Positions 12,624-60,230 of a stretch of 64,000 nucleotides of DNA are shown piece after piece. Numbering within the stretch: position 1 is the stretch's first letter; each line of letters begins with the position of its first letter. This DNA is from Pseudonocardia lacus. GTDB lineage: Bacteria; Actinomycetota; Actinomycetes; Mycobacteriales; Pseudonocardiaceae. Under the pieces are notes generated by a model that was not told the DNA's origin, searched no databases, and saw nothing but the letters and a program-made list of their open reading frames with translations. The position numbers were made by a program, and so were the translations under genes. The DNA lies in the NCBI RefSeq assembly GCF_018531445.1, contig NZ_JAHDTH010000015.1, positions 1-64,000 of the forward strand, in the 5' to 3' direction.

Positions 12624-12794
12624 GATGACGTCCTCCCGTTCCGCGCCCGGGAATGGCGCGTGTGGGTGCGAGTCAAGCAACGCCCGCTTCCACCCCGCTG
12701 CCGCCGCGATGCCGCACGACGCACCCCGGCCTCACCGACCGACCGCGGATGGGAGCATCGTCGGGACCGGTCCCGACCGATCGGAGGCGATGGG

Positions 12795-13280
12795 ATGGCC
12801 GCAGGGCTGTGGACCTCCGTCCTGTCGCTCGTCGGGGTCCTCGTGGGCGGCGGGCTGACGGCGTTCACCCAGCGCGCGACGCAGCGCGCGGCCGAGCGGT
12901 CGGAACTGCGGCGCCAGCGGCTGGCCACCGCGGAGGCGCGGCGGGCCGAGCTGATCCAGGCCATCAAGGAGTTCACCGTCCACGCGCAGGAGGCCGAGCG
13001 GGCTGCCTACAGCCGTCCCGATCCGTGGGGCGACGACGAGGGCGGCTGGATGACCGAGACGCAGGCCGTCATGGCCAAGCTGTGGGCGGCGGACCGGACC
13101 CTGGCCCTGCTCAGCGATCCCGTCCTGCACGCGCCACTGCACGACTACGGACGCGCCCTCAACCAAGCGGTGTGGCGGGACACCTCCGATCAGGAGGTGA
13201 ACGCGCACCTGGAGCCGCACAAGACGGCCTTCATGGTCGCGGCCCGGGCCAGCCTCGCCGCCCAGCAGCCGGCCGACTAG
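12795..13280 (+). CDS. Hypothetical protein with N-terminal membrane helix and coiled coil
   Basis: The 161-residue protein starts with a hydrophobic segment (residues 5-22, LWTSVLSLVGVLVGGGLTAF), followed by a highly charged helix rich in Ala, Arg, Glu and Gln (about residues 25-65) that should form a coiled coil. The C-terminal part is helical without a known domain. Such anchor-plus-coiled-coil proteins are common in Streptomyces and relatives, with no known function. ATG at 12795 is supported by CGGAGG seven bases upstream. It converges on the SGNH hydrolase gene, overlapping its stop by two bases. Confidence 0.75.
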   Translation: MAAGLWTSVLSLVGVLVGGGLTAFTQRATQRAAERSELRRQRLATAEARRAELIQAIKEFTVHAQEAERAAYSRPDPWGDDEGGWMTETQAVMAKLWAADRTLALLSDPVLHAPLHDYGRALNQAVWRDTSDQEVNAHLEPHKTAFMVAARASLAAQQPAD

Positions 13281-13951
13281 GCCTGGTCGGCCAGGAGGGC
13301 GCCGAGCGTCTGGACCACCAGGCTGGCGAGGACCGCTTGCCCCGTCGTGGCGAAGTGGATCCGGTCCTCGCTGAGCAGGTTCGGGCGGTCGTTCAGCGGG
13401 TGGTCCCAGGAGTCGACGACGGCCGCGCCGTGCTCGGCGGCCAGCGCGCGCGTGATGCCGTTGAGGCGGTCCACGCGGGCGCTGAAGTCGGGGAAGGCGG
13501 GGACGACGAAGGCGCGGCCGAGGGTGAACACGGTCAGCCGGGCGCCGGTTCCCTTCGCCCACGCGTACATGGCGCGGAGGTCGTCCTCGATCCGGCTCCA
13601 GTCGGGCTTGCGGCGCATGATGTCGTTGGCACCGCTGTTGAGGTGCAGGAGGTCCGGGCCGAAGGCCTCGATCCGGGCCGCCTGCTCGGCGAGCGCCTGC
13701 GCGGTCGTCGCGCCGACCCTCGCGGTGGTGAGGTGGGCGAGGTCGGGGGCGACCCGCCGCAGGATCCGCTCCACCCGCGCGGCCCACCCCAGGTCGTCGT
13801 AGCCCGGGGTCGGGTCCCCGACGCCGAGCGACAGGCTGTCGCCGAAGACGCCGAACCGCCGCCACGGGGCGCCCGCGAGGATCCGTGCGCCCGCGTCCGG
13901 GGTGAGGACGTCGGGGTCCGTCGCTTCGGTCAGCGGCCGGGACGCGGTCAT
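13277..13951 (-). CDS. SGNH/GDSL hydrolase
   Basis: A 224-residue esterase/lipase-like enzyme. Block I is FGDSLSLGVG (catalytic Ser), block III is NSGANDIMRR with the oxyanion Asn, and block V is DRIHFATTG with the Asp-His pair. Gly of block II falls in the TTARVGATT stretch. There is no signal peptide, so the enzyme is probably cytoplasmic. The ATG overlaps the transporter stop (ATGA), so the two genes form one operon under the HxlR-linked promoter. The substrate is unknown. Confidence 0.9.
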   Translation of the reverse strand: MTASRPLTEATDPDVLTPDAGARILAGAPWRRFGVFGDSLSLGVGDPTPGYDDLGWAARVERILRRVAPDLAHLTTARVGATTAQALAEQAARIEAFGPDLLHLNSGANDIMRRKPDWSRIEDDLRAMYAWAKGTGARLTVFTLGRAFVVPAFPDFSARVDRLNGITRALAAEHGAAVVDSWDHPLNDRPNLLSEDRIHFATTGQAVLASLVVQTLGALLADQA

Positions 13952-15351
13952 CGCCGGGTCACCCGGCTTCCGTGCTGCCGGATGAAGAGCGCGGCCACCG
14001 CACTGATGAGCACCAGGGCGGTGACGTAGAGCCAGCCTTCGCGGAAGGCGCCGTCGACGTGCAGGTTCGCGCGGCTGCCGAGGATCGCCACGAGGCCGGC
14101 GACGCCGAGCGCGTAGCCCGCCTGGCGGGCGGTGTTGACCACCGCGCTCCCGGTGGCGGCGTCCGCCGGGGCGAGGTCGGCGGTCGCGGCGCCGATGAGG
14201 GTGGGCATGCAGATCCCGATGCCGACGCCGATGACGATCCAGCCGGGGAGCACGTCGGTGGCCCACTGCGCTCCACCGCTGGTGGCCAGCAGCAGCGAGC
14301 CGAGCCCGAAGACCGCGAGCCCGACGGAGACCACGTACCGGGGCGGCGCGGTCGCGGCCCAGCGCTGGGTCAACGCCGCGAAGAGCGGCACGGCCAACGG
14401 GCCGGGGAGCATCGCGAGTCCCGCTTGGAGCGGGCTGTAGCCGGCCGCCGCCCCCAGCCACAGCGACACGCCCAGGAAGACAGCGCTGAACGCGCTGGTG
14501 AACAGCAGGATCGTCAGGTTCGCGACGCTGAAGCTGGGCACCCGGAACAACCGGCGCGGCAGCACCGGTTCCGGGTGCCTCCGGACCCGGTGGACCAGCA
14601 GCGCCGCGGCGAGCAGCACGAGCGCACCGGTCAGCAGCATCGGACCCGACGTCCACCCCCACTCGTCGGCCATCACCAGGCCCAGCGAGCCGGCCCCGAC
14701 GGCGACCGCGATCGCGGCCGCGCCCACCGGGTCGGGGACGCGGGCCCGCGACGACGGCGCGCTCCTGGGGATCAGGCGGGCGGCCAGCACGAGCGCGACC
14801 AGGCCGATCGGCAGGTTGATCAGGAACGCCCACCGCCACGAGAACTCGGCCAGCAGGCCCCCGACGACCGGTCCGAGCGCGCCGGCGAACGAGGAGGTGA
14901 CGGCCCAGGTCTTCACCGCGCCGGCGCGTCGCGCCTGCGGCAGCACGCTGAGGATCAGCCCGAGGCTCGCCGGGGTCAGCACCGCCGCGCCGACGGCCTG
15001 GGCGACCCGGAACCCGATCAGGACCCACAGCGACGGCGCGACCGCGCACCCGAGGCTGGCGATCGTGAACAGCCCCAGCCCGACGAGGAAGCCCTGCTTG
15101 CGCCCGTACCGGTCGGAGAGGCTGCCCGCCGGGATGAGGAACGCGGCGTAGACGACGGTGTAGCCGTTGAGGACCCAGCTGAGCTCGGCCAGCGACGACC
15201 CGGGGTAGGTCTCCCCGATCGATCGGAACGCCACGTTCACGATGAACAGGTCCAGCATCGTCATGAACGCGGCCACGCACAGCAGCACCGTCGTCCTGGT
15301 GGCCGCCTCGGTCGCGACCTCCCCGGTCGGGGGCGCCTCCCGGGTGCTCAT
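13948..15351 (-). CDS. DHA2-family MFS multidrug efflux transporter
   Basis: The 467-residue protein shows about 14 membrane segments. Motif D1-like FMTMLDLFIVNVAF, motif A GSLSDRYGRKQGFLVG, and the antiporter motif C (GALGPVVGGLLAEF) are characteristic of drug:H+ antiporters of the DHA2 (EmrB/QacA) family. ATG at 15351 begins just before the conserved REAPP...TTVLLCVAAF region. It is divergent from an HxlR regulator, with a strong inverted repeat between them. The downstream SGNH hydrolase overlaps by four bases, hinting that the operon handles an esterified compound. Confidence 0.93.
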   Translation of the reverse strand: MSTREAPPTGEVATEAATRTTVLLCVAAFMTMLDLFIVNVAFRSIGETYPGSSLAELSWVLNGYTVVYAAFLIPAGSLSDRYGRKQGFLVGLGLFTIASLGCAVAPSLWVLIGFRVAQAVGAAVLTPASLGLILSVLPQARRAGAVKTWAVTSSFAGALGPVVGGLLAEFSWRWAFLINLPIGLVALVLAARLIPRSAPSSRARVPDPVGAAAIAVAVGAGSLGLVMADEWGWTSGPMLLTGALVLLAAALLVHRVRRHPEPVLPRRLFRVPSFSVANLTILLFTSAFSAVFLGVSLWLGAAAGYSPLQAGLAMLPGPLAVPLFAALTQRWAATAPPRYVVSVGLAVFGLGSLLLATSGGAQWATDVLPGWIVIGVGIGICMPTLIGAATADLAPADAATGSAVVNTARQAGYALGVAGLVAILGSRANLHVDGAFREGWLYVTALVLISAVAALFIRQHGSRVTRR

Positions 15352-15443
15352 CGCCGGTCCCGCGGGCCGGCGCCGGCCCGCCCGAAGTCGTCGAACGTCG
15401 TCCTGGTGGCAGCGGACACCGATCCTCCCGAAGTGAGTCGAGT

Positions 15444-15481
15444 TTTCAAACCGACTCCACCCTGGAGGGGTCGGTTTGAAA
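15444..15481. promoter_or_regulatory. Inverted-repeat operator between hxlR-type and MFS genes
   Basis: TTTCAAACCGAC at 15444-15455 and its perfect inverse GTCGGTTTGAAA at 15470-15481 flank a 14-bp centre. The arms extend three bases further with one mismatch. Each arm is AT-rich compared with the surroundings. The position, 23 bp from the HxlR-type start and about 90 bp from the transporter start, fits a shared operator for the winged-helix dimer. Confidence 0.72.
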
Positions 15482-15503
15482 GCACAACCCACTGTGCGAG
15501 AAT

Positions 15504-15974
15504 GTGACCGTGCCTACAGCGCCACCGGAGGAGACCCCCAGGGACTGCACGATCGCCGACGCCCTCGATGTCGTCGGCGACCGGTGGAGCCTGCTGGTCG
15601 TGCGCGAGCTGTTCTACGCCCAGCAGCGCTTCGTCGAGATCGTGCGCAACACCGGGGCGCCGAGGGACATCGTCGCGGCGCGGCTCAAGAAGCTCGTCGA
15701 GCACGACGTGATCGCCCGCGAGCTGTACAGCGAGCGCCCGCCGCGCTACGCGTACCGGCTGACCGCCGCCGGTCGCGACCTGGCGCCCGTGCTGCTCACC
15801 CTCAAGCGCTGGGGCCACGAGCACGTCAGGGGCGGCGCCGACCCGGTGCGGTTCGACCACACCTGCGGGCACGAGTTCGTGGCCGAGGTGCACTGCACGG
15901 CGTGCGGCGACGCCTTCGCGGCGAGCCAATTGCGGCTCTCCCGGGTCGACGCACCGGCGCCCGGCACCGGGTGA
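15504..15974 (+). CDS. HxlR-family transcriptional regulator
   Basis: A 156-residue winged-helix protein with the HxlR signature: CTIADALDVVGDRWSLLVVR, then FYAQQRFVEIVRNTGAPRDIVAARLKKL and PPRYAYRLTAAGRDL. A C-terminal extension contains HTCGHEFVAEVHCTACG, a probable zinc-binding knuckle frequent in actinobacterial members. GTG at 15504 or 15510 can serve as start. It is divergent from the DHA2 transporter operon and has the inverted repeat at 15444-15481 next to its promoter, so it probably represses that operon. Confidence 0.92.
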   Translation: MTVPTAPPEETPRDCTIADALDVVGDRWSLLVVRELFYAQQRFVEIVRNTGAPRDIVAARLKKLVEHDVIARELYSERPPRYAYRLTAAGRDLAPVLLTLKRWGHEHVRGGADPVRFDHTCGHEFVAEVHCTACGDAFAASQLRLSRVDAPAPGTG

Positions 15975-38470: not shown

Positions 38471-39604
38471 CTACAGGGTGCCGTCGTCGGCCAGGGTGCC
38501 GGAGGAGAGGGTGACGCCCTCGCCGACCTGGCGGGGGATGGTGACCTCGCTGACCAGGTTGCCGGTCGAGACGACCTCCAGGCTCTCCGCGCTGCCCCGC
38601 TGGTAGTCCAGGCCGATGCCCTCGCCGTTGCCGCGGATGGCGTTGCCGGTCACGCTCACGAACGCGTTCGCGTAGTTGCCGCGCACGTGCAGGAACGTGC
38701 CGCTGCCGTCGTTGAACTTGAAGATGCGGTTGCTGGAGATCGTGCTGGCCGCACCGCCCTGGACGGCGGCGTAGATGCCGTAGGTGCCGAAGTCCTCGAT
38801 GTAGTTGTCGTGCACCGAGGACCCGTAGAGCCGGTTCATGGCCAGCCCGGTCTCGCCGTCGACGCCGTAGATGTGGTTGCCGGTGATCAGCCAGCCGGCG
38901 GTGTTGTCCATCGAGACGCCGTCGCTGCCGGTCCCGGCGATGTAGTTGTCGGCGAGCTGCCAGTCGGTGACGCTGTTGCCCGGGTCGTCCACGTTGACGC
39001 CGTGGCGGCCCGACCGGTTGATCTGCATGCTGGCGATCCGGCCGTTGACCTGGGTGTTGGTCAACCGGGTGCCGTTGGCCGACACGCTGGTCACCCGGAC
39101 GCCGTCGCGGGCGCTTCCGTTGATCTCGATGTCCTCGACGGTCGTCTGCCAGGAGCGCAGCACGATCGAGTCGCCCGCGGTCGGGTTGTTCGCGACGTTG
39201 CCGTTGATCGTCAGCGTCCGCAGGGTGATCGGCAGGCCGGTGGTGGAGGAGTTGTCCACCCAGCTGTCGCTGGCGAAGATCGCCGGCAGGTTGGCCCCGT
39301 CGGCCTGCTTGATCTGCGTGCCGGTGCGGGAGCCGCCGCGGTAGGTGCGGTTGCCCAGCAGCTTGATCGTCTCGTTGACCAGGCACGGGCCGTTGAAGAC
39401 GATCTCGTCGCCGGGCTTGCTCGCCGCGATCCGGTTGTTGATGAGCCGGGCGTCCGTCAGCGTGTTGGTGCACGGCACCGTGCGCGTGGCCAGCACGGCC
39501 GGGGCCAGCGGCGCGTCCGGCGGCTGCGGCGGCGGAGGCTGCGCCGGCGAGAAGGAGAGCGTGGCGGCCACCGCGGCGGCGGCCAGGGCGATGAGGCTCT
39601 GCAC
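38471..39604 (-). CDS. Secreted right-handed beta-helix protein, paralogue 1
   Basis: A 377-residue exported protein: the signal peptide is about residues 1-20, followed by a Pro-rich linker (PAQPPPPQPPDAP). The rest is a parallel beta-helix with repeated N-G/N-x-I rungs such as GDEIVFNG, TLTINGN, VEDIEINGSARDGVRV, NHIYGVDGE and NYIEDFGTYGIYA. The fold is shared by pectin lyases and polysaccharide epimerases; no catalytic Asp trio is obvious. GTG at 39604 is preceded by AGGAG with an eight-base spacer, identical in the paralogue at 45530-46672. The partner is probably a cell-wall or exopolysaccharide glycan. Confidence 0.85.
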   Translation of the reverse strand: MQSLIALAAAAVAATLSFSPAQPPPPQPPDAPLAPAVLATRTVPCTNTLTDARLINNRIAASKPGDEIVFNGPCLVNETIKLLGNRTYRGGSRTGTQIKQADGANLPAIFASDSWVDNSSTTGLPITLRTLTINGNVANNPTAGDSIVLRSWQTTVEDIEINGSARDGVRVTSVSANGTRLTNTQVNGRIASMQINRSGRHGVNVDDPGNSVTDWQLADNYIAGTGSDGVSMDNTAGWLITGNHIYGVDGETGLAMNRLYGSSVHDNYIEDFGTYGIYAAVQGGAASTISSNRIFKFNDGSGTFLHVRGNYANAFVSVTGNAIRGNGEGIGLDYQRGSAESLEVVSTGNLVSEVTIPRQVGEGVTLSSGTLADDGTL

Positions 39605-45529: not shown

Positions 45530-46672
45530 TCAGATGCCGCCGAGCGCGGCGAACTGCCCCGAGCTGACGACGACGCCCGGGCCGACCTGGATCGGGATCG
45601 CCACCTCGGTGACCAGGTTGCCGGCCGAGACGACCTCCAGGCTGTTCGCGTTGCCCTTGATGTAGTCCAGCCCGACCCCGCCGCCGTTGCCGCGGATGGC
45701 GTTGCCGGTCACCGCGACCTTGCCGTCGCCGTAGTTGCCCTCGACGCGCAGGAACGTGCCGTCGCCGTCGTTGAACTTGAAGATGCGGTTGTTGGAGATG
45801 GTGCTGGCCGCGTCGCCCTGGACGCGGGCGATGAGCCCGACGGTGCCGAAGTCCTCGATGTAGTTGTCGCTGATGCCGGTGCCGTAGATGCGGTTGGCGC
45901 GCAGGCCGTAGTTGCCGTCGACGCCGTAGATGTGGTTGCCGGTGATCATCCAGCCGGCCGCGTTGTCGAGCGAGACGCCGTAGCCGCCGGTGCCGGCGAC
46001 GTAGTTGTCGGCGAACTGCCAGTCGGTGACGCTGTTGCCCGGGTCCTCCACGTACAGCCCGCTGCCGCCGGAGTCGTTGATCTGCATGCTGGCGATGCGG
46101 CCGTTGACCTGGGTGTTGGTGATGCGGGTGCCGTTCTGCGACAGGCTGGTGACCCGCACGCCGTGGCGCTTGCTGCCGTTGATCTCGATGTCCTCGACCT
46201 GGGTCTGCCAGGAGCGGATGACGATCGAGTCCTTGGCGTTCGGGTTGTTCTCGACGTTGCCGTCGACGGTCAGCGTCCGCAGCGCGAACGGCAGGCCCGT
46301 GGTCGTGGTGTTGTCCAGGTAGCCGTCGCTGGCGAAGATCGCGTCGAGGTTGGCCCCGTCGGCCTGCTTGATGACGGTGCCGGTGCGCGAGCCGCCGCGG
46401 TAGGTGCGCCCGCCGATCAGCTTGATCGTCTTGTTGATCAGGCAGGTGCCGTCGAAGATGATCTCGTCGCCGGGCTGGCTCTGGGCGATCCGGCGGTTGA
46501 TCGAGTCGGCGTCGCGCAGGCTGTTGCGGCACGGCACGGTCCGCTCCGCCACGGACAGCTTCTGCGGGCCGTCCAGCGGCACCGGCGGCACCGGCCCCGG
46601 AGGCGGCTGCGCCGGGGAGAAGGAGAGCGCCGCCGCTACGGCGGCGGTGGCGAGCGCAACGAGGCTTGGCAC
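45530..46672 (-). CDS. Secreted right-handed beta-helix protein, paralogue 2
   Basis: The 380-residue protein is a close paralogue of the one at 38471-39604: same signal peptide pattern (SLVALATAAVAAALSFSPAQ), Pro linker and beta-helix rungs (GDEIIFDG, TLTVDGN, VEDIEINGSKRHGVRV, NYIEDFGTVGLIA), with most positions identical. It differs mainly in surface residues and at the C-terminus. The GTG at 46672 has the same AGGAGTACCGAAC initiation context. Both genes share a promoter-like element about 240 bp upstream, so they are probably co-regulated surface or wall-glycan proteins. Confidence 0.86.
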   Translation of the reverse strand: MPSLVALATAAVAAALSFSPAQPPPGPVPPVPLDGPQKLSVAERTVPCRNSLRDADSINRRIAQSQPGDEIIFDGTCLINKTIKLIGGRTYRGGSRTGTVIKQADGANLDAIFASDGYLDNTTTTGLPFALRTLTVDGNVENNPNAKDSIVIRSWQTQVEDIEINGSKRHGVRVTSLSQNGTRITNTQVNGRIASMQINDSGGSGLYVEDPGNSVTDWQFADNYVAGTGGYGVSLDNAAGWMITGNHIYGVDGNYGLRANRIYGTGISDNYIEDFGTVGLIARVQGDAASTISNNRIFKFNDGDGTFLRVEGNYGDGKVAVTGNAIRGNGGGVGLDYIKGNANSLEVVSAGNLVTEVAIPIQVGPGVVVSSGQFAALGGI

Positions 46673-47101
46673 GTTCGGTACTCCTGTCGGTCGGTCGCGC
46701 GCCCGCGGCCGGGACCGGCGCCGTGCGGGCACGGGCCGGGGACGCTGGGGAGCGCCGACCGGAGGAGCGTGGGTCTGGCCCCGACCGGGGTTGCGCCGGG
46801 CGGGGACGCGAACCCGCCGCGGCGTCCCGCCCGACCGGTGCGCGACCGACCGCGCGCGGGCTCGCCGTGCACGGGCTCCGCGTCGTCCCCGACAGACCGA
46901 TCGAGAAGCCGTCTACGTATCGACCGGGTGACCCCCGCGTTAGCAACTCTCCGTCGATCGGATCATCACCGCTGGTCGTCGGCCCTGCGGGATTTCCCCC
47001 GACCGCTCGCGCGAGATGATCGTCCGGTCACCCGGGGTGCCGTACGCTCCCGCTGCCCCGCCGGCCCACCGGTGTCCGCCGCCGAAGAACAGGAGCACCC
47101 G
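46673..47101. other. Long leader of beta-helix paralogue 2 and upstream region of the reductase gene
   Basis: No ORF is supported. The shared promoter element lies at 46911-46942, giving a leader of about 235 nt on the minus strand. The remaining 150 bp, up to the ferric-reductase-like ATG at 47102, should hold that gene's promoter, but no clear boxes are seen. Confidence 0.55.
46911..46942 (-). promoter_or_regulatory. Shared upstream element of beta-helix paralogue 2
   Basis: On the minus strand TAACGC, 14 bases, CGATACGTAGAC. It matches the element upstream of paralogue 1 in both blocks; the CGATACGTAGAC block lies 239 bp ahead of its GTG. Flanking bases (CCCCGACA, GACCGA) are also conserved. 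Confidence 0.6.
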
Positions 47102-50504: not shown

Positions 50505-52910
50505 ATGACGACGGCGGAGCGGCAGGTCGTGGTTCCCGCCCCCGGCGCCACACCTCGACCGGAGACCCGCGGACGGCCCGGGGGGCGCCTCGCGCCCGCC
50601 CACCGCGACGGGCTCGCCCTGGTGCTGAGCTCCGGTCTGACCTCGGCGGTCGGACTGCTCTACTGGGTCATCGCCGCGCGCCTCTTCCCGCCGGCCGTGC
50701 TGGGCGTCAACCAGGTCGCGCTGAACACGATGATGCTGCTCGGCAGCGTGGCGCACCTGAACATGACCTACGCGCTGCTGCGGTTCGTGCCCGTCGCCGG
50801 CCTGGCGGCCCGCAGGCTGGTCGGCTTCGGCTACCTCGCCGCCATCATCTTCGCCGCGATCGTCGGCGGGGTCTTCGCGCTCGGCGCCGGGGTGTGGGCC
50901 CCCCAGCTCGTCGAGGGCTGGGGCCACGGCCGGCTGATCGTGTTCTTCCTGGTCGCAACGCCCGTCTGGTCGCTGTTCGTGATCCAGGACTTCGTGCTCA
51001 CCGCGGTCAAGAGGGCCACCGCCGTCCCCGCCGAGAACGCCGTCTTCTCGGTGCTCAAGATCGCTCTGCTGCTGGTGGCCTTCGTGGGCGCCGTCGACGG
51101 CGGCATCGCGATCTCCTGGGTCATCTCGACCGCCGTGATCGTGCTGGGGATCAACGTCTGGCTGCTGCTCAAGGTGCTGCCGGCGCACGGCCGGGCCACC
51201 GTCTCCGACGCCACCCCGATCACCCTCGGTGGCTTCACCCGGTTCATCCGCGCCGACTACGCCGGCGCCGTGCTGTGGCAGTGCGCCCTGTTCGGCCTAC
51301 CGCTGCTCGTCCTGGCCCGGCTGGATGCCGAGTCCGCGGCCGTCTACGGCATCGTCTGGACGATCTCCCAGGCGCTCTACACCGTCTCCTCCGGCATGGG
51401 CCAGTCGATGGTGGCGCACAGCGCCTCCGACCTGGCCGGCCTGGAGAAGGCCCGCAAGGCCATGGTGCGCCGGGCGATGACGCTGGTCGTCCCGGTCGCC
51501 GCGGTCGTCTCCATCGGCGCGCCGCTGTGGCTGATGGTCTTCGGCGACCACTACGCGGCCAACGGCTCGATGGCGCTGATCCTGGCCTCGCTGTCGGCGA
51601 TCCCGAACGTCATCACCGCCTCGACGGTCAACGCCGCGCGCGTGCGCCAGCGCATGGGCGTGCTGTTCGGGGTGCCGGCCACGCTCGCGGTGTCGGTCAT
51701 CCTCGGGTCCTGGCTGCTGATGCCGCACATCGGCATCACCGCGGTCGGCCTGTCCTGGCTGGTCGCCCAGACCCTGATGGCCATCGGCATCCTGATCGCC
51801 ACCGCGCCGTGGCTGCCGCCGCTGCTGAGCACCCGCATCGACGCCATGCGCAGCGCGGCGCTGGTGCGCCGGGTCCGCCCGCTGGCCCACGAGCACAACG
51901 CCGCGTCCCCGGAGGAGTGGGACCTCGGCGAGCTGATCGCCGGCAAGTCCGACTCCATCGTCATCGACTTCAAGAACCTCTCCGGTGGCACCGGCGCGCT
52001 GCTCAAGGCCGCCGACAGCGTCGCGGGGCGCTCGCAGCTGCTCCGCCAGACCGAGGTGCTCGACCGCCTGCACGCCGACACCCGCCTCGGCGGCTGGCGG
52101 TCGCTGGTGCCCACCATCGAGCGCGCCGGCTACGTCGGCGGCAGCTACTGCATCGTGGAGGCCCGGCTGCCGGGCGAGCGCGGCGTCGGGGCGCTCTACG
52201 ACCTGAGCCGCACCCGCCGGTTCCGCTCCAGCGCGATCGCCACGATCTCGGAGTTCCACCGGCTCACCTCCACGCCGGTGGTCGCCGGCGACGCCCAGCT
52301 GGTCCGCTGGATCCACGAGCCGATGGCCGAGGTCGTCGGGGCGCTGCCCAAGGCCCACCGGCCGGCCGCGCTCGCCCTGGCCGACCTGCTCGCCGACCAC
52401 GTCCGCGGCGCCGTGGTGGCCACCGGGTGGGCGCACGGCGACTACACCCCCGACAACGTCCTCACCGACCCGGCCGGCCAGGTCGTCGCCGTCATCGACT
52501 GGTGCCAGGCCGACGAGCTGGGCATGCCGCTGATGGACGTCAGCGGCTTCCACCTGGTGGCCACGTTCATGGTCACCGACGGCGCCGAGCTGGGCGCGAC
52601 CGTGCTCAACCGGCTCACCGACATCCGCCCCGCCGACCACCAGCTCTTCGCCCGCACCCAGCGGATGCTGGGCAGCGACGTGCTCGACAGCCGGGTCGTG
52701 ATGCTCCTGGGCTGGCTCATGCACGTGGCCCACAACATCGAGAAGTCGTCGCAGTTCGCGGCCAACCCGCTGTGGGTGCGCCGCAACCTGGTCACGGTGG
52801 TGCAGGGGGCGCCGGAGCTGCTGTCGCGGCCGTCGCGCCCGGCGCGGCGGCACCGGCCGCAGCCGCAGCAGCTGTTCGTGCCGCCGACGAACGGCCGCGT
52901 GTCACTCTGA
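50505..52910 (+). CDS. Polysaccharide flippase fused to an APH-type kinase domain
   Basis: An 801-residue two-part protein. Residues about 40-445 form 12-14 membrane helices of the MOP/polysaccharide-transport (Wzx/MATE-like) type: LSSGLTSAVGLLYWVIAARL, LPLLVLARLDAESAAVYGIV and so on. Residues about 480-780 are a cytoplasmic aminoglycoside-phosphotransferase/choline-kinase-like domain with LSGGTGALLKAAD (nucleotide Lys), catalytic loop WAHGDYTPDNVL near residue 645 and metal motif VIDWCQAD near 664. The catalytic Asp and Asn are kept, so the kinase could be active. It may phosphorylate or sense a lipid-linked sugar. ATG at 50505; the LtaS-like gene follows by 98 bp. Confidence 0.88.
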   Translation: MTTAERQVVVPAPGATPRPETRGRPGGRLAPAHRDGLALVLSSGLTSAVGLLYWVIAARLFPPAVLGVNQVALNTMMLLGSVAHLNMTYALLRFVPVAGLAARRLVGFGYLAAIIFAAIVGGVFALGAGVWAPQLVEGWGHGRLIVFFLVATPVWSLFVIQDFVLTAVKRATAVPAENAVFSVLKIALLLVAFVGAVDGGIAISWVISTAVIVLGINVWLLLKVLPAHGRATVSDATPITLGGFTRFIRADYAGAVLWQCALFGLPLLVLARLDAESAAVYGIVWTISQALYTVSSGMGQSMVAHSASDLAGLEKARKAMVRRAMTLVVPVAAVVSIGAPLWLMVFGDHYAANGSMALILASLSAIPNVITASTVNAARVRQRMGVLFGVPATLAVSVILGSWLLMPHIGITAVGLSWLVAQTLMAIGILIATAPWLPPLLSTRIDAMRSAALVRRVRPLAHEHNAASPEEWDLGELIAGKSDSIVIDFKNLSGGTGALLKAADSVAGRSQLLRQTEVLDRLHADTRLGGWRSLVPTIERAGYVGGSYCIVEARLPGERGVGALYDLSRTRRFRSSAIATISEFHRLTSTPVVAGDAQLVRWIHEPMAEVVGALPKAHRPAALALADLLADHVRGAVVATGWAHGDYTPDNVLTDPAGQVVAVIDWCQADELGMPLMDVSGFHLVATFMVTDGAELGATVLNRLTDIRPADHQLFARTQRMLGSDVLDSRVVMLLGWLMHVAHNIEKSSQFAANPLWVRRNLVTVVQGAPELLSRPSRPARRHRPQPQQLFVPPTNGRVSL

Positions 52911-53008: not shown

Positions 53009-54763
53009 TTGTCGCTGCTCTCCCACTTCCGCCGGTCGTCGACCACGGAGCGGGACGACACGGCGGTCGCCGACGCCCGCGTCGACACCGACGCTGACAC
53101 CGACGGCGCTGACACCGACGGCGCCGTGGAGCCGCAGCGCCCCCGCCGGCCCGTGCTGATCGCGCTCGCGTGGCTGCTCACCACCCTGGCCGCGCTGCTC
53201 GTGCTGGTCGCGCTGCTCGCGCCGGGCCGGCTGGCCGACCTGACCGTCGGCGCCTTCCTGCGGCTGCCGGTCGAGGCCATCGTCTGCCTCGCGGTGCTGC
53301 TCCTGCTGCCCGTGCGGGCGCGGCGGGTGCTCGCGCCGGTGCTGGGATTCGTGCTGGCCGTGCTGCTCATCCTGCGGATCCTCGACCTCGGCTTCCTGTC
53401 CGTGCTCGACCGCGAGTTCAACGTGCTGGTCGACTGGAAGCAGCTCGGCGACGCGCTCAACGTCCTGCGCGACTCGATCGGCGAGACCGCCACGACCGCC
53501 GCCACGGTCGGCGCCATCGCCCTGGCCGTCGCGCTGATGGTCCTGCTCCCGCTGGCGGTCAACCGGCTGACCCGGCTCGCCGGCCGGCGCCGGCCGCTCG
53601 CGCTGCGGGTGCTGGCCGTCGCCGCCCCGGTGTGGCTCGTCTGCGCCCTGCTCGGCGTGCAGGTCGTCCCGGGCGTCCCGGTCGCCTCGGCCAACGCGGC
53701 CGACATGCTGACCGACCGCAGCGTCCAGGTCGTCAGCAGCATCCGCGACCGCTACGTCTTCGCCGACGAGATCGCCGTCGACGCCTACCGCGACACCCCC
53801 GGCGACCAGCTCCTCACCGCGCTGCGCGGCAAGGACGTGCTGTTCACGTTCATCGAGAGCTACGGCCGCAGCGCGCTGGAGAACCCCGAGTACGCGCCGG
53901 AGATGAACGCGCTGCTCGACCGGGGCACCCAGCGCCTCGCCGCGGCCGGCTTCACCGCCCGCACCGGCTACCTGACCTCCTCGACGTCCGGCGGCAACAG
54001 CTGGCTCGCCCACGCCGCCCTGATGGCCGGCGTGTGGACCAACGACCAGCAGCGCTACAACCAGGTCGTGCAGACCGACCGCCTCACCCTGAACAAGGCG
54101 TTCGGCAAGGCGGGCTGGCGGACCGTCGGCGTGATGCCGGGCATCACCAAGGAGTGGCCGGAGGGCCGCTTCTTCGGCTACCAGCACCTCTACGACAAGC
54201 CCACCCTCGACTACCACGGCCCCAACTTCGGCTGGGGCCCCATCCCCGACCAGTTCACGATGAAGCGGCTGCACGAAGGCGAGCTCAGCACCCCCGGCCA
54301 CCCGCCGGTGATGGCCGAGATCGCCCTCGTCTCCAGCCACTGGCCGTGGGCCCCGCTGCCGCGCACCGTCGGCTGGGACGAACTCGGCGACGGCTCGATC
54401 TTCAACCCGCAGATCGCCGAGGGCCTCACCTACGAGGAGGTCTGGGCCGACGAGTCCCGCGTGCGCGCGGAGTACCGCCGCTCGCTGGAGTACACGATGG
54501 AGACCGTGATCTCCTACGCCGAGACCTACGGCGACGACAACACCGTGATGGTCGTCCTCGGCGACCACCAGCCGGCCCCGAACATCACCGGCGAAGGCGC
54601 CGGCCGTGATGTGCCCATCACGATCCTGGCCCGCGACCCCGCCGTTCTGGACCGCATCGCCGACTGGGGCTGGCGCGACGGCCTCGCCCCGGCCCCGGAC
54701 TCCCCGGTGTGGCGGATGGACGAGTTCCGCGACCGGTTCCTGGCGGCGTACGGGCCCGGTTAG
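53009..54763 (+). CDS. LtaS-like membrane sulfatase/phosphotransferase
   Basis: The 584-residue protein has an acidic cytoplasmic N-terminus with Asp-Thr/Ala repeats (about residues 15-45), five membrane helices (about 48-72, 80-100, 105-130, 155-178 and 195-215) and an extracellular sulfatase-fold domain (about 265-560). [45 protein letters not shown] and [14 protein letters not shown] are metal- and nucleophile-site motifs of the LtaS/phosphoglycerol-transferase group. It probably decorates an envelope glycan with a phospho-group, acting with the upstream flippase. TTG at 53009 has AAGGA about nine bases upstream. Confidence 0.86.
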
Positions 54764-56824: not shown

Positions 56825-58528
56825 TCAGCCGGGCACCGCCGCCAGTTCGGGGTCCTCCTCGCCGTTCTCCGGCACGACCTCCAGGAGCCCGCGCTCGCGC
56901 ACGACCCGCACCGAGAGCGTCTTGTAGCCGACCTCGTCGAACATCACCGTCAGCTCCTGCGCGTCCGAGGACACCACCACGCCACGGCCCCACTCGACGT
57001 GGCGGACGCTGCCGTTCACCGGGAAGTCGGCGTTCTGCTCCGTCGCCTCGGTGGCGGTGCCGGCGTCGCACCGGTCGCAGTTGCCGCAGCTCCGGGAGAG
57101 CCGCTCGCCGAAGTAGCCGAGCAGGAACCGGCGCCGGCAGTCGGTGGTCTCGGCGTAGCCGCGCATCATCTCGATCCGCGAGCGGACCAGCTGCTGGCGG
57201 GTCTCGGCGACCTCGACGGCCCGGCGCACGGCGTCCTCGGGGGCGGTGCGGTCGTCGAGGTACTCCAGCCCGCCGTCCTCGGCCGTGACCAGGACGCCGG
57301 CCTCCTCCAGCAGGTTGATCGCGCGCGTGCGCCTCGCCGGGGAGGCGTCGACCTCGTCGGCCAGCCGGGTCGGGAGCATCGGGCCGTCGTGCCGCGCCAC
57401 GGCGCGGGCCACCTCGCGCAGCGCGTCCTCGGGGGCCCTGGCGGCGGTCAGGAAGCGCTGCAGGCCGAGGTCCTCCGGGCGGTAGTGCAGCTCGACGACG
57501 GCCGGCTCGCCGTCCCGGCCCGCCCGCCCGACCTGCTGGTAGTAGGAGTCCAGCGACTCCGGCACCGAGGCGTGCACGACGTAGCGCACGCCGGGCTTGT
57601 CGATGCCCATGCCGAACGCCGACGTCGCCACCACGACGTCCAGCTCGTCGGCCAGGAACTGCTCGTGCACGCGCTCGCGGTCGGCCCTGCCCATCCCCGC
57701 GTGGTACGCCGCGGCGCGCAGGCCCTGCGCGGCCAGCGCCTCCGCGTAGGACTCGGCGTCCTTGCGGGTCGCCACGTAGAGCAGGCCGCCGCGGGTGCCG
57801 GGACCGGCGTCGAGCTCGCGCACCCTGGCCAGCACCCCGCGGCGCTTCGCGTCCTCCTCCAGCGCGGTGACGACGCCCAGGTGCAGGTTGGGCCGGTCGA
57901 ACCCGCCGACCACCTCGCGGTGCCCGCGCAGGCCGAGCCGGGTCACGATGTCGCGGCGCACCGGCAGCGCGGCGGTCGCCGTCATCGCGACCACCGTCGG
58001 GTGCCCCAGGCGCTCGACGACCTGGCCGAGGCGCAGGTAGTCGGGGCGGAAGTCGTGGCCCCACGCCGAGACGCAGTGCGCCTCGTCCACCACGAACAGC
58101 CCGATCCGCAGCTCGGCGAGCCGCTCGACGGTCTCCGGATTGGCCAGCTGCTCGGGCGCCAGGAACAGGTACCCGGCCTCGCCCTCGCGGACCGCCCGCC
58201 AGGCCTCCTCCCGCTCGGCGGGCCGCTGGGCGGAGTTCACCGCCACCGCGCCCGGCGCCCGGGTGTCGCCGATCGACCCCACCTGGTCGCGCTGCAGCGC
58301 CAGCAGCGGCGACACCACCAGCGTCGGGCCGTCGACCAGCAGGGCAGGGACCTGGTAGATCGCGCTCTTGCCGAACCCGGTGGGCAGCACGACGAGCACG
58401 TCGTGGCCGGCCACCACGTGCGCCATCGCGGCCCGCTGCTCGTCGCGCAGGCGCGACCAGCCGAACGTCCGATCGGCGACCCGTTGCAGCTTCCGCCCGT
58501 GCCACCGCGCCCGCATCCGCTCCCACAC
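56825..58528 (-). CDS. recQ: RecQ-family ATP-dependent DNA helicase, copy 1
   Basis: The 567-residue helicase has motif I PTGFGKSAIYQVPALL, motif II VVDEAHCVSAWGHDFRP, motif III MTATAALPVRRDIV, motif VI YYQQVGRAGRDGEP, and a zinc cluster (CRRRFLLGYFGERLSRSCGN with CDRCD). The C-terminus is a short DUF3553-like beta domain (GSVRHVEWGRGVVVSSDAQE). No HRDC domain is present. It unwinds DNA in recombination repair. GTG at 58528 or ATG at 58516. It follows a very similar gene by 52 bp; the intact motifs suggest that both are functional. Confidence 0.93.
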   Translation of the reverse strand: MWERMRARWHGRKLQRVADRTFGWSRLRDEQRAAMAHVVAGHDVLVVLPTGFGKSAIYQVPALLVDGPTLVVSPLLALQRDQVGSIGDTRAPGAVAVNSAQRPAEREEAWRAVREGEAGYLFLAPEQLANPETVERLAELRIGLFVVDEAHCVSAWGHDFRPDYLRLGQVVERLGHPTVVAMTATAALPVRRDIVTRLGLRGHREVVGGFDRPNLHLGVVTALEEDAKRRGVLARVRELDAGPGTRGGLLYVATRKDAESYAEALAAQGLRAAAYHAGMGRADRERVHEQFLADELDVVVATSAFGMGIDKPGVRYVVHASVPESLDSYYQQVGRAGRDGEPAVVELHYRPEDLGLQRFLTAARAPEDALREVARAVARHDGPMLPTRLADEVDASPARRTRAINLLEEAGVLVTAEDGGLEYLDDRTAPEDAVRRAVEVAETRQQLVRSRIEMMRGYAETTDCRRRFLLGYFGERLSRSCGNCDRCDAGTATEATEQNADFPVNGSVRHVEWGRGVVVSSDAQELTVMFDEVGYKTLSVRVVRERGLLEVVPENGEEDPELAAVPG

Positions 58529-58580: not shown

Positions 58581-60230
58581 TCAGCCGGCGCCGACGACGT
58601 GCAGCAGCTCGCGGTCCCGGACCACCTGCAGCGCGAGGGTCTTGTAACCGACCTCCTCGAACAGCACCGTCAGCTCGTCCTGGTCGGAGGAGACCACCAC
58701 ACCGGGGCCCCACTCGGCGTGCCGGACGGTGCTGCTGACCGGGAACTCCTCGCTCTCGCTGAGGCTGTCCTCGGCGGTGCCGGCGTCGCAGGTGTCGCAG
58801 TTGCCGCAGCGCCGCGGCAGCGGCTCGCCGAAGTAGCCGAGCAGGAACCGGCGCCGGCAGTCGGTGGTCTCGGCGTAGCCGCGCATCATCTCGATCCGCG
58901 AGCGGACCAGCTGCTGGCGGGTCTCGGCGACCTCTACCGCGCGCTCCACGGCCTCCGCGGGCCGGGTGTCCTCGTCGAGGTACTCCAGCCGGCCCTTCTC
59001 CGTGGTGGCCAGGGCCCCGGCCTCTTCGAGGAGGTTGACCGCGCGCGTCCGCTTGACCGGGGAGACGTCGACCTCGGCCTTGAGGTCGGCCGGCTTCACC
59101 GGCCCGTCGTGGCGCTCCACCGCCTTCGCGACCTGCGCCAGCGCGTCCTCGGGTGCCTTCGCGGCGGTCAGGAAGCGCTGCAGGTTGAGGTCCTCCGGGC
59201 GGTAGTGCAGCTCGACGACGGCCGGTTCGCCGTCGCGGCCGGCCCGCCCGACCTGCTGGTAGTAGGAGTCCAGGGACTCCGGCGCCGAGGCGTGCAGGAC
59301 GTAGCGGACGTCGGGCTTGTCGATGCCCATGCCGAACGCCGAGGTCGCCACCACGACGTCCAGGTCGTCGGCCAGGAACCGTTCGTGCACCCGCTCCCGG
59401 TCGGCCTTGCGCATGCCGGCGTGGTACGCCTCGGCGCGCATCCCCTCGCCGGACAGCGCCTCGGCGTAGGACTCGGCGTCCTTGCGCGTGGCCACGTAGA
59501 CCAGGCCGCCGTGGGTGACCGGGTCGGCGTCCAGCTCGCGGGTGCGGGCGACGACCTCGCGGCGCTTCGCGTCGTCGTCGAGGGCGGTGACGACGGTGAG
59601 GTGCAGGTTGGGCCGGTCGAAGCTGGCGATCACCTCGCGGTGCTCGCGCAGGCCGAGCCGCTCGACGATGTCGCGGCGCACGGGCAGCGCGGCGGTCGCC
59701 GTCAAGGCGATCACCGTCGGGTGCCCGAGGCGCGCGATGACGTGGCCCACCCGCAGGTAGTCGGGCCGGAAGTCGTGGCCCCACGCCGAGACGCAGTGCG
59801 CCTCGTCCACCACGAACAGCCCGATCCCGATGCCGGCCAGCCGCTCGACGGTCTCCTCGTTGGCCAGCTGCTCGGGAGCCAGGAACAGGTACTCGGCCTC
59901 GCCCTCGCGCACCGCGCGCCAGGCCTCTTCCCGCTCGGACGCGCGCTGGGCCGAGTTCACCGCGACCGCGTCCGGCGCCCGGGTGTCCTCGATCGACTCC
60001 ACCTGGTCCTGCTGCAGGGCCAGCAGCGGCGACACGACCAGCGTCGGACCCTCGGTGAGCACCGTGGGGACCTGGTAGATCGCGCTCTTGCCGGCCCCGG
60101 TGGGCAGCACGACGAGCACGTCGTGGCCGGCCACGACGTGCTCCATGGCCGCCCGCTGGTCGCCGGTCAGCCGGGACCATCCGAAGGTCCGGTCGGCCAC
60201 CCGCTGCAACTCGTCGTTCCGCTTCGACAC
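58581..60230 (-). CDS. recQ: RecQ-family ATP-dependent DNA helicase, copy 2
   Basis: The 549-residue helicase is built like copy 1 and is identical to it over long blocks, for example VVDEAHCVSAWGHDFRPDYL. Walker A is PTGAGKSAIYQVPTVL (copy 1 has Phe for Ala), and the zinc cluster is CRRRFLLGYFGEPLPRRCGN with CDTCD. The C-terminal DUF3553-like domain ends earlier. The tandem pair shares even its intergenic hairpin, so it arose by duplication. GTG at 60230. Copy 2 is upstream and probably drives expression of copy 1. Confidence 0.93.
   Translation of the reverse strand: MSKRNDELQRVADRTFGWSRLTGDQRAAMEHVVAGHDVLVVLPTGAGKSAIYQVPTVLTEGPTLVVSPLLALQQDQVESIEDTRAPDAVAVNSAQRASEREEAWRAVREGEAEYLFLAPEQLANEETVERLAGIGIGLFVVDEAHCVSAWGHDFRPDYLRVGHVIARLGHPTVIALTATAALPVRRDIVERLGLREHREVIASFDRPNLHLTVVTALDDDAKRREVVARTRELDADPVTHGGLVYVATRKDAESYAEALSGEGMRAEAYHAGMRKADRERVHERFLADDLDVVVATSAFGMGIDKPDVRYVLHASAPESLDSYYQQVGRAGRDGEPAVVELHYRPEDLNLQRFLTAAKAPEDALAQVAKAVERHDGPVKPADLKAEVDVSPVKRTRAVNLLEEAGALATTEKGRLEYLDEDTRPAEAVERAVEVAETRQQLVRSRIEMMRGYAETTDCRRRFLLGYFGEPLPRRCGNCDTCDAGTAEDSLSESEEFPVSSTVRHAEWGPGVVVSSDQDELTVLFEEVGYKTLALQVVRDRELLHVVGAG

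Follow-up and report, generated by a model that had tools for sequence, protein, structure and literature searches.

Several described systems bring a kinase or kinase-like protein together with the export of lipid-linked glycans. In mycobacteria, the MurJ/MviN flippase carries a domain, ActPs3, that is a pseudokinase of the Ser/Thr-kinase family, defective in binding ATP and Mg (PMC12599244). In Actinoplanes missouriensis, PMC13390465 describes squashed sporangia upon deletion of wpsI, which encodes a protein-kinase-like protein; the same phenotype follows deletion of wpsG (Wzx), of wpsJ (Wzy), and of four other genes of the wps cluster. WbdD of Escherichia coli O9a phosphorylates a polyprenol-linked glycan and thereby halts its growth (PMC3482155). 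In the available sections of PMC12419801, APH-like kinases and flippases are named only as gene context of lipocones. No publication describing a fusion of the two, as reported here for Pseudonocardia, was found in the open-licence PMC literature.

Architecture of the fusion protein

The window analyzed here is a 64,000-nucleotide stretch of DNA from Pseudonocardia lacus (genome G000, contig C56, in an assembly of 8.06 Mb in 501 contigs). Positions 50505 to 52910 of its plus strand hold a single open frame of 801 aa (protein P0001), which starts with ATG at 50505, ends with TGA at 52908 to 52910, and contains no internal stop codons. The frame, Pfam, and a structure model confirm what the earlier note had proposed for this frame, namely, a flippase and an APH-type kinase in one protein. 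An assembly join was rejected as the origin of the fusion because a 92% identical copy is present in a second genome (G015) and a single intact frame occurs in 22/62 Pseudonocardia genomes. In comparison with P. humida, the membrane half has a dN/dS of 0.29 and the kinase half one of 0.25, so that purifying selection appears to act on each. The full-protein AlphaFold2 model, built with 20 aligned sequences, has a mean pLDDT of 82 and a pTM of 0.67. PADLOC returned no anti-phage match for P0001 or P0002 at an E value of 0.001, and an anti-phage system was rejected on that ground.

The membrane half (50595 to 51800, plus strand; residues 31 to 432) is modeled with 12 transmembrane helices, as in the MOP fold of Wzx-type flippases. 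Structure searches with this half returned WzxE (Z 32.9, rmsd 3.5 over 389 residues, 13% identity), a second WzxE match (Z 32.7), and MurJ (Z 29.7, rmsd 3.3 over 384 residues) ahead of the best MATE transporter (Z 27.7); below Z 27.7 the WzxE, MurJ, and MATE families interleave, and conformation influences the order of the matches. The model supports the assignment of the membrane half as a flippase, which we predict to be of the Wzx type with lipid-linked oligosaccharides as its cargo. Among profile databases, Pfam made no flippase call in P0001, with a sub-threshold TCAD9 match besides the APH kinase, and at E values up to 1 it matched Polysacc_synt weakly in 6/40 and MatE weakly in 2/40 aligned relatives. 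In NCBIfam, neither the fusion nor its membrane part has a model of its own; P0001 drew only macrolide-kinase matches, far below the cut-off, and only kinase models were matched over the 40 rows. Hydropathy analysis shows 12 peaks before residue 445, but their placement differs from the model (residues 87 to 126 are split and 275 to 306 are missed), so the count of charges by loop supports the topology only approximately. Arginines R104, R379, and R381 are invariant in the 20 rows of alignment A3, which excludes L106 and L112 (alignment A4 excludes L112, L114, and L115). Since twelve helices place the C terminus on the same side as the N terminus, which is the cytoplasm in MOP flippases, we infer by analogy that the C terminus of the fusion is cytoplasmic.

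In the structure model, a linker helix (51819 to 51893, plus strand; residues 439 to 463) joins the last membrane helix to the kinase. The APH-fold kinase domain spans 51918 to 52826 on the plus strand (residues 472 to 774), as indicated by Pfam, the kinase model, and structure matches; the Pfam APH match itself (PF01636) covers residues 513 to 704 with 38.9 bits against a cut-off of 23.2. The catalytic loop HGDYTPDN occupies residues 644 to 651 (52434 to 52457, plus strand), VIDW begins at residue 663, with the predicted metal-binding D665 and W666 of the IDW motif at 52497 to 52502 (plus strand), and K501, the candidate ATP-anchoring lysine within ALLKA, lies at 52005 to 52007 (plus strand). 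These positions were compared across 44 fused and unfused kinase domains with matches of more than 240 profile positions, where the 12 domains labeled "single" include L081 and L096 from frame-broken fusions. H644, D646, N651, D665, and W666 are retained in 44/44 domains, and position 501 is lysine in 42/44 and arginine in 2/44 (L072 and L124); the alignment of HGDYTPDN, VIDW, and K501 omits six pieces of frame-broken copies (L044, L085, L095, and L096). The HGDxxxxN loop and IDW motif that the earlier note had read from one sequence are intact, their H, D, and N and their D and W residues hold across the 44 kinases, and the motifs of the nucleotide site are unbroken. The intact catalytic motifs argue against a pseudokinase. 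An NPxWxRRN stretch toward the C terminus is common to the aligned family members of the kinase.

Modeled alone, the kinase half reaches a pLDDT of 91. For the APH fold given to residues 449 to 774, the best structure matches have Z scores of 17.7 to 17.9, with antibiotic kinases tied; these include, both at Z 17.7, APH(4)-Ia (rmsd 3.4 over 269 residues) and APH(3'')-Id (rmsd 3.6 over 244 residues). That antibiotic kinases are the closest structures says little about the substrate. The best reading of the intact motifs and the APH fold is that the kinase half is predicted to be catalytically competent.

Distribution of fused and unfused kinases

The fusion is not unique to the window genome and recurs in related genera. 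At E values of 1e-15 or better, the kinase was found in 35/390 genomes of the family, comprising 28 Pseudonocardia, 6 of genus g27, and 1 of genus g31. Within Pseudonocardia (28/62 genomes with the kinase), 22 genomes carry an intact fusion, 4 a frame-broken one (G020, G062, G063, and G075), and 2 a lone kinase only (G003 and G019), so that the fusion, intact or broken, is present in 26/62. In g27, the fused frame lies beside a second flippase gene in 5/5 neighborhoods examined; the neighborhood of the sixth match, which begins at base 6 of a contig of G173, was left out. The g31 frame encodes 877 aa and contains both the flippase and the kinase halves. A scan with one conserved kinase peptide pattern, which reaches close relatives only, assigned 21/21 named loci to Pseudonocardia. 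The earlier note had raised the prospect of a widely present fusion with a known role; wide presence was found, and the open-licence PMC literature yielded no known role.

An even sample of the phylum (396 genomes) contained a 791-aa fusion in one distant actinobacterium, G566, in a cluster that also holds glycosyltransferase, deacetylase, and GNAT/FemAB-like genes. In the flippase tree, which was built from matches of more than 330 profile positions (L085 was dropped as the same gene as L044, and L044 and L095 were counted as fused), the G566 fusion sits on a long branch and does not group with the fusions of the Pseudonocardiaceae. This tree requires 4 changes between the fused and unfused labels, and the kinase tree, where L124 is weakly placed on a long branch, requires 5. 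The G566 fusion probably arose independently; this origin is likely, not proven, because the flippases were placed by a quick tree in which some branches (L124 and L048) are long.

Unfused relatives of the kinase were found in at least 14 genomes, a number that is a lower bound because scoring in each genome was limited to a few top candidates (the best 5 in the family and the best 2 in the wider searches, at E values of 1e-15 to 1e-20). Five of these are Pseudonocardia (G020, along with its broken fusion; G068 and G071, along with intact fusions; G003; and G019), and nine are not (G586, G496, G593, G780, G500, G834, G911, G039, and G920). Neighborhoods were drawn with a simple codon-bias gene caller that misses genes in lower-GC genomes (e.g., L134 to L136). 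In 8/14 genomes, no more than 10 kb separates the unfused kinase from a flippase of the fusion's family: G039 (1.0 kb), G496 (2.0 kb), G834 (3.1 kb), G911 (3.2 kb), G586 (4.0 kb), G071 (5.0 kb), G068 (7.2 kb; here the kinase match contains a stop codon), and G020, where the two genes are less than 100 bp (<0.1 kb) apart and are preceded by deacetylase and HAD-type genes. Pfam detected a polysaccharide deacetylase in 7/8 of these loci, the eighth (G068) being assigned one by clustering with the deacetylase of L078, and a family-2 glycosyltransferase in 6/6 of those scanned; GNAT/FemAB-like genes are near the unfused kinase in G039 and G834. No flippase was called in the remaining flank in G003, G019, G593, and G920, where the contig ends or is short, and the unfused kinases of G500 and G780 are not near a flippase, although in G780 the contig ends 2 kb from the kinase. 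As a control, the window genome has 39 further APH matches (in some cases several fragments of a single gene), and none is on a contig that carries a flippase of the fusion's family; the control is weak because the contigs are short.

The clade of the fusion flippases also contains a clade of 16 unfused rows, and G001 and G016 have a flippase of the fusion's clade without a kinase match. The kinase would therefore be dispensable for flipping as such, and the kinase-free flippases suggest that its role is cargo modification or regulation and that flipping does not require it.

Several arrangements were observed among these relatives. In one genome (L044/L085, P. asaccharolytica; L053), the fusion is frame-broken inside the kinase, and a separate, adjacent unfused kinase-flippase pair is present. 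L053 also has, at 12786 to 15668, a single 960-aa frame that combines an FtsW/RodA-type protein with a penicillin-binding transpeptidase. An oxidoreductase, whose N terminus we take to be GMC-family-like, adjoins a flippase-only relative of the same clade at eight loci (L052, L054, L055, L060, L061, L063, L064, and L067). In other actinobacteria, related flippases are followed in frame by 11 to 14 further hydrophobic segments (L129, 6958 to 10743; L130, 9433 to 13431; L131, 9346 to 12993; and L144, 9184 to 12750); these proteins total 1,188 to 1,332 aa and are possibly Wzx-Wzy (flippase-polymerase) fusions.

Genes adjacent to the fusion

A GDSL hydrolase gene is directly downstream of the fusion in nine Pseudonocardia genomes, and a gene for an S-adenosylmethionine decarboxylase/spermidine synthase is upstream in eight genomes; the frame-broken fusion of G075 is included in both counts. 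Polyamine genes precede the fusion at L041, L044, and L079 to L084, most of which have an ornithine-type decarboxylase as well.

In six genomes (G170, G217, G221, G197, G061, and G071), the gene immediately upstream of the fusion encodes a protein with a HAD-phosphatase half, and in G061 and G197 it overlaps the fusion gene by 4 bp. The protein is ∼440 aa in G061 and G071 and 519 to 855 aa, as called, in four g27 genomes; its HAD part was recognized by Pfam in 2/6 cases, and the other four are homologous by alignment. The longest copies, including that of the unfused G020 cluster, have an extra N-terminal half, for which a PRTase match was seen in L053 (G020) alone, at 25.3 bits, just under the cut-off of 26.3; structure searches matched the HAD half only. 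Loci that encode this protein directly or nearly upstream of a kinase or fusion include L122 (4120 to 6687), L053 (5293 to 7980), L087 (7511 to 8836), and L089 (3 to 1334). We presume that the protein may be a dual-domain ribofuranosyltransferase, and either ribofuranosyl transfer or a kinase-phosphatase pair is possible for this neighbor.

In the window, a gene for an LtaS-like sulfatase-fold enzyme (53009 to 54763, plus strand; 584 aa; Pfam Sulfatase, 27.9 bits) lies ∼0.1 kb downstream of the fusion, and the earlier note had suggested that the pair could build a phosphate-decorated surface polymer. The distribution of this gene across genomes did not sustain the idea. It adjoins the fusion in 2/26 fusion-bearing genomes, G000 and G015 only (both at ∼0.1 kb), is found at distances of 4.3 and 5.8 kb in two further genomes, and has no match at an E value of 1e-10 in 4/26. 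In total, it occurs in 55/62 genomes, being equally common with the fusion (22/26) and without it (33/36; Fisher P = 0.44). An LtaS-coupled polymer pathway was rejected because neither conserved linkage nor co-occurrence was found; judged by this genomic distribution, the LtaS-like neighbor is incidental rather than a conserved partner. A consensus scan detected no terminator or promoter between the two genes and was uninformative.

Elsewhere in the window, tandem paralogous genes on the minus strand (56825 to 58528 and 58581 to 60230) encode proteins of 567 and 549 aa that form one blastp cluster and that we take to resemble RecQ-type helicases. Two other minus-strand genes (38471 to 39604 and 45530 to 46732) encode proteins with similar N termini, including an FSPAQPPP stretch, and are perhaps paralogous secreted proteins.

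Proposed function and comparison with known systems

We propose, with a probability of roughly 0.5, that a lipid-linked oligosaccharide is phosphorylated by the kinase at the cytoplasmic face, ahead of its export. The acceptor would be a hydroxyl of a sugar, or of a substituent, in the lipid-linked repeat unit, and a nucleotide would supply the phosphate; once phosphorylated, the unit would be moved outward by the flippase, and the exported units would polymerize to form an anionic polysaccharide at the surface or outside the cell. Being fused, the kinase would sit at the entrance of the flippase, which would couple modification to export; on this reading, the phosphorylation-coupled export suggested in the earlier note may hold. 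A more tentative extension is that phosphorylation licenses flipping, such that a flippase with its own substrate kinase would set the charge of the polysaccharide at export. The two folds, the retained motifs, the repeated association of kinase and flippase, and the G566 fusion were all counted in favor of a kinase acting on the cargo. A link between the kinase and glycan export is supported at the sequence level because the unfused relatives lie inside polysaccharide clusters, and WpsI offers, by analogy, the precedent of a Wzx/Wzy pathway that requires a kinase-like gene. Counting against a cargo kinase, the fusion in the window is outside any recognizable polysaccharide cluster, and its neighbors vary between genomes; the kinase-free flippases of the clade, the unfused kinases of G500 and G780, and the stop codon in the G068 kinase match were weighed on the same side. 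If the kinase does act on the flippase cargo, the protein would represent a built-in modification checkpoint in the export of lipid-linked oligosaccharides, in which substrate selection is a poorly understood step. It would also provide a first function for an APH subfamily found in actinobacterial polysaccharide clusters and predict phosphorylated polysaccharides for the actinobacterial clusters that contain the kinase.

The kinase might instead be a gate or regulator that phosphorylates the flippase or another protein, or senses ATP or a sugar, and thereby opens or closes export. This reading is unlikely, given that APH-fold enzymes act mostly on small molecules, that small-molecule kinases are its closest folds, and that the unfused kinases sit among glycan-modifying genes (a deacetylase, with the GNAT/FemAB-like genes of G039 and G834). 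Fusion to a transporter would nevertheless suit a regulatory module, and mycobacterial MviN has a regulatory C-terminal kinase-like domain (PMC12599244).

A kinase that makes or salvages a small precursor of the same pathway, such as a free sugar or polyol phosphate, and is fused for co-expression only would agree with APH-fold relatives that include homoserine and fructosamine-type kinases among the structure matches and with the HAD-phosphatase-half protein encoded directly upstream in six genomes. A soluble metabolite, however, needs no fusion to a membrane flippase, and the separate, probably independent fusion in G566 also speaks against this reading, which we regard as quite unlikely. 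Phosphorylation of the polyprenol carrier, with the carrier lipid fed back to the pathway, would explain the physical link to the carrier of a lipid-linked substrate, and the APH fold does include kinases of lipid-like alcohols, one being the 25-hydroxy steroid kinase (Z 16.2); we know of no polyprenol kinase of the APH fold, however, and sugar-acting genes surround the unfused copies, which makes this reading improbable. Least probable, and only barely credible, is a resistance device in which an antibiotic is phosphorylated and then exported: the kinase fold is closest to aminoglycoside and macrolide kinases, and the MOP group includes MATE drug exporters that match the membrane half with Z scores up to 27.7, but WzxE (32.9 and 32.7) and MurJ (29.7) outscore them, and the unfused copies are located in polysaccharide clusters.

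Set against known systems, the fusion protein resembles the WzxE lipid III flippase and the Wzx family of MOP flippases in its 12-helix fold (Z 32.9 over 389 residues) and in its unfused flippase relatives, which adjoin glycosyltransferases and a deacetylase; unlike WzxE, it has a C-terminal kinase, and the two share only 13% identity. APH(3'), APH(4), and other PF01636 kinases have the fold and catalytic motifs in common with the fusion kinase, which differs in being joined to a flippase and in keeping the NPxWxRRN stretch C-terminally. In the wps-1 cluster of A. missouriensis (PMC13390465), kinase-like and Wzx genes likewise occur together and give the same deletion phenotype, although WpsG and WpsI are separate genes; the comparison is drawn at the level of the cluster and its phenotypes. 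WbdD is a more distant analogue, in that its kinase acts on a polyprenol-linked glycan destined for export (PMC3482155); it combines a eukaryotic-like kinase with a methyltransferase, belongs to an ABC-transporter pathway, acts as a chain terminator, and is separate from the exporter. The nearest published idea (PMC12599244) is the mycobacterial MurJ/MviN protein, which is also an actinobacterial MOP flippase with a C-terminal kinase-like domain (ActPs3). The fusion had been set apart from this pseudokinase in the earlier note as belonging to a different kinase family with its catalytic residues kept, and the comparison agrees: the domain of the fusion is of the APH family and its motifs are intact rather than degraded, whereas the MviN domain belongs to another kinase family and is dead.
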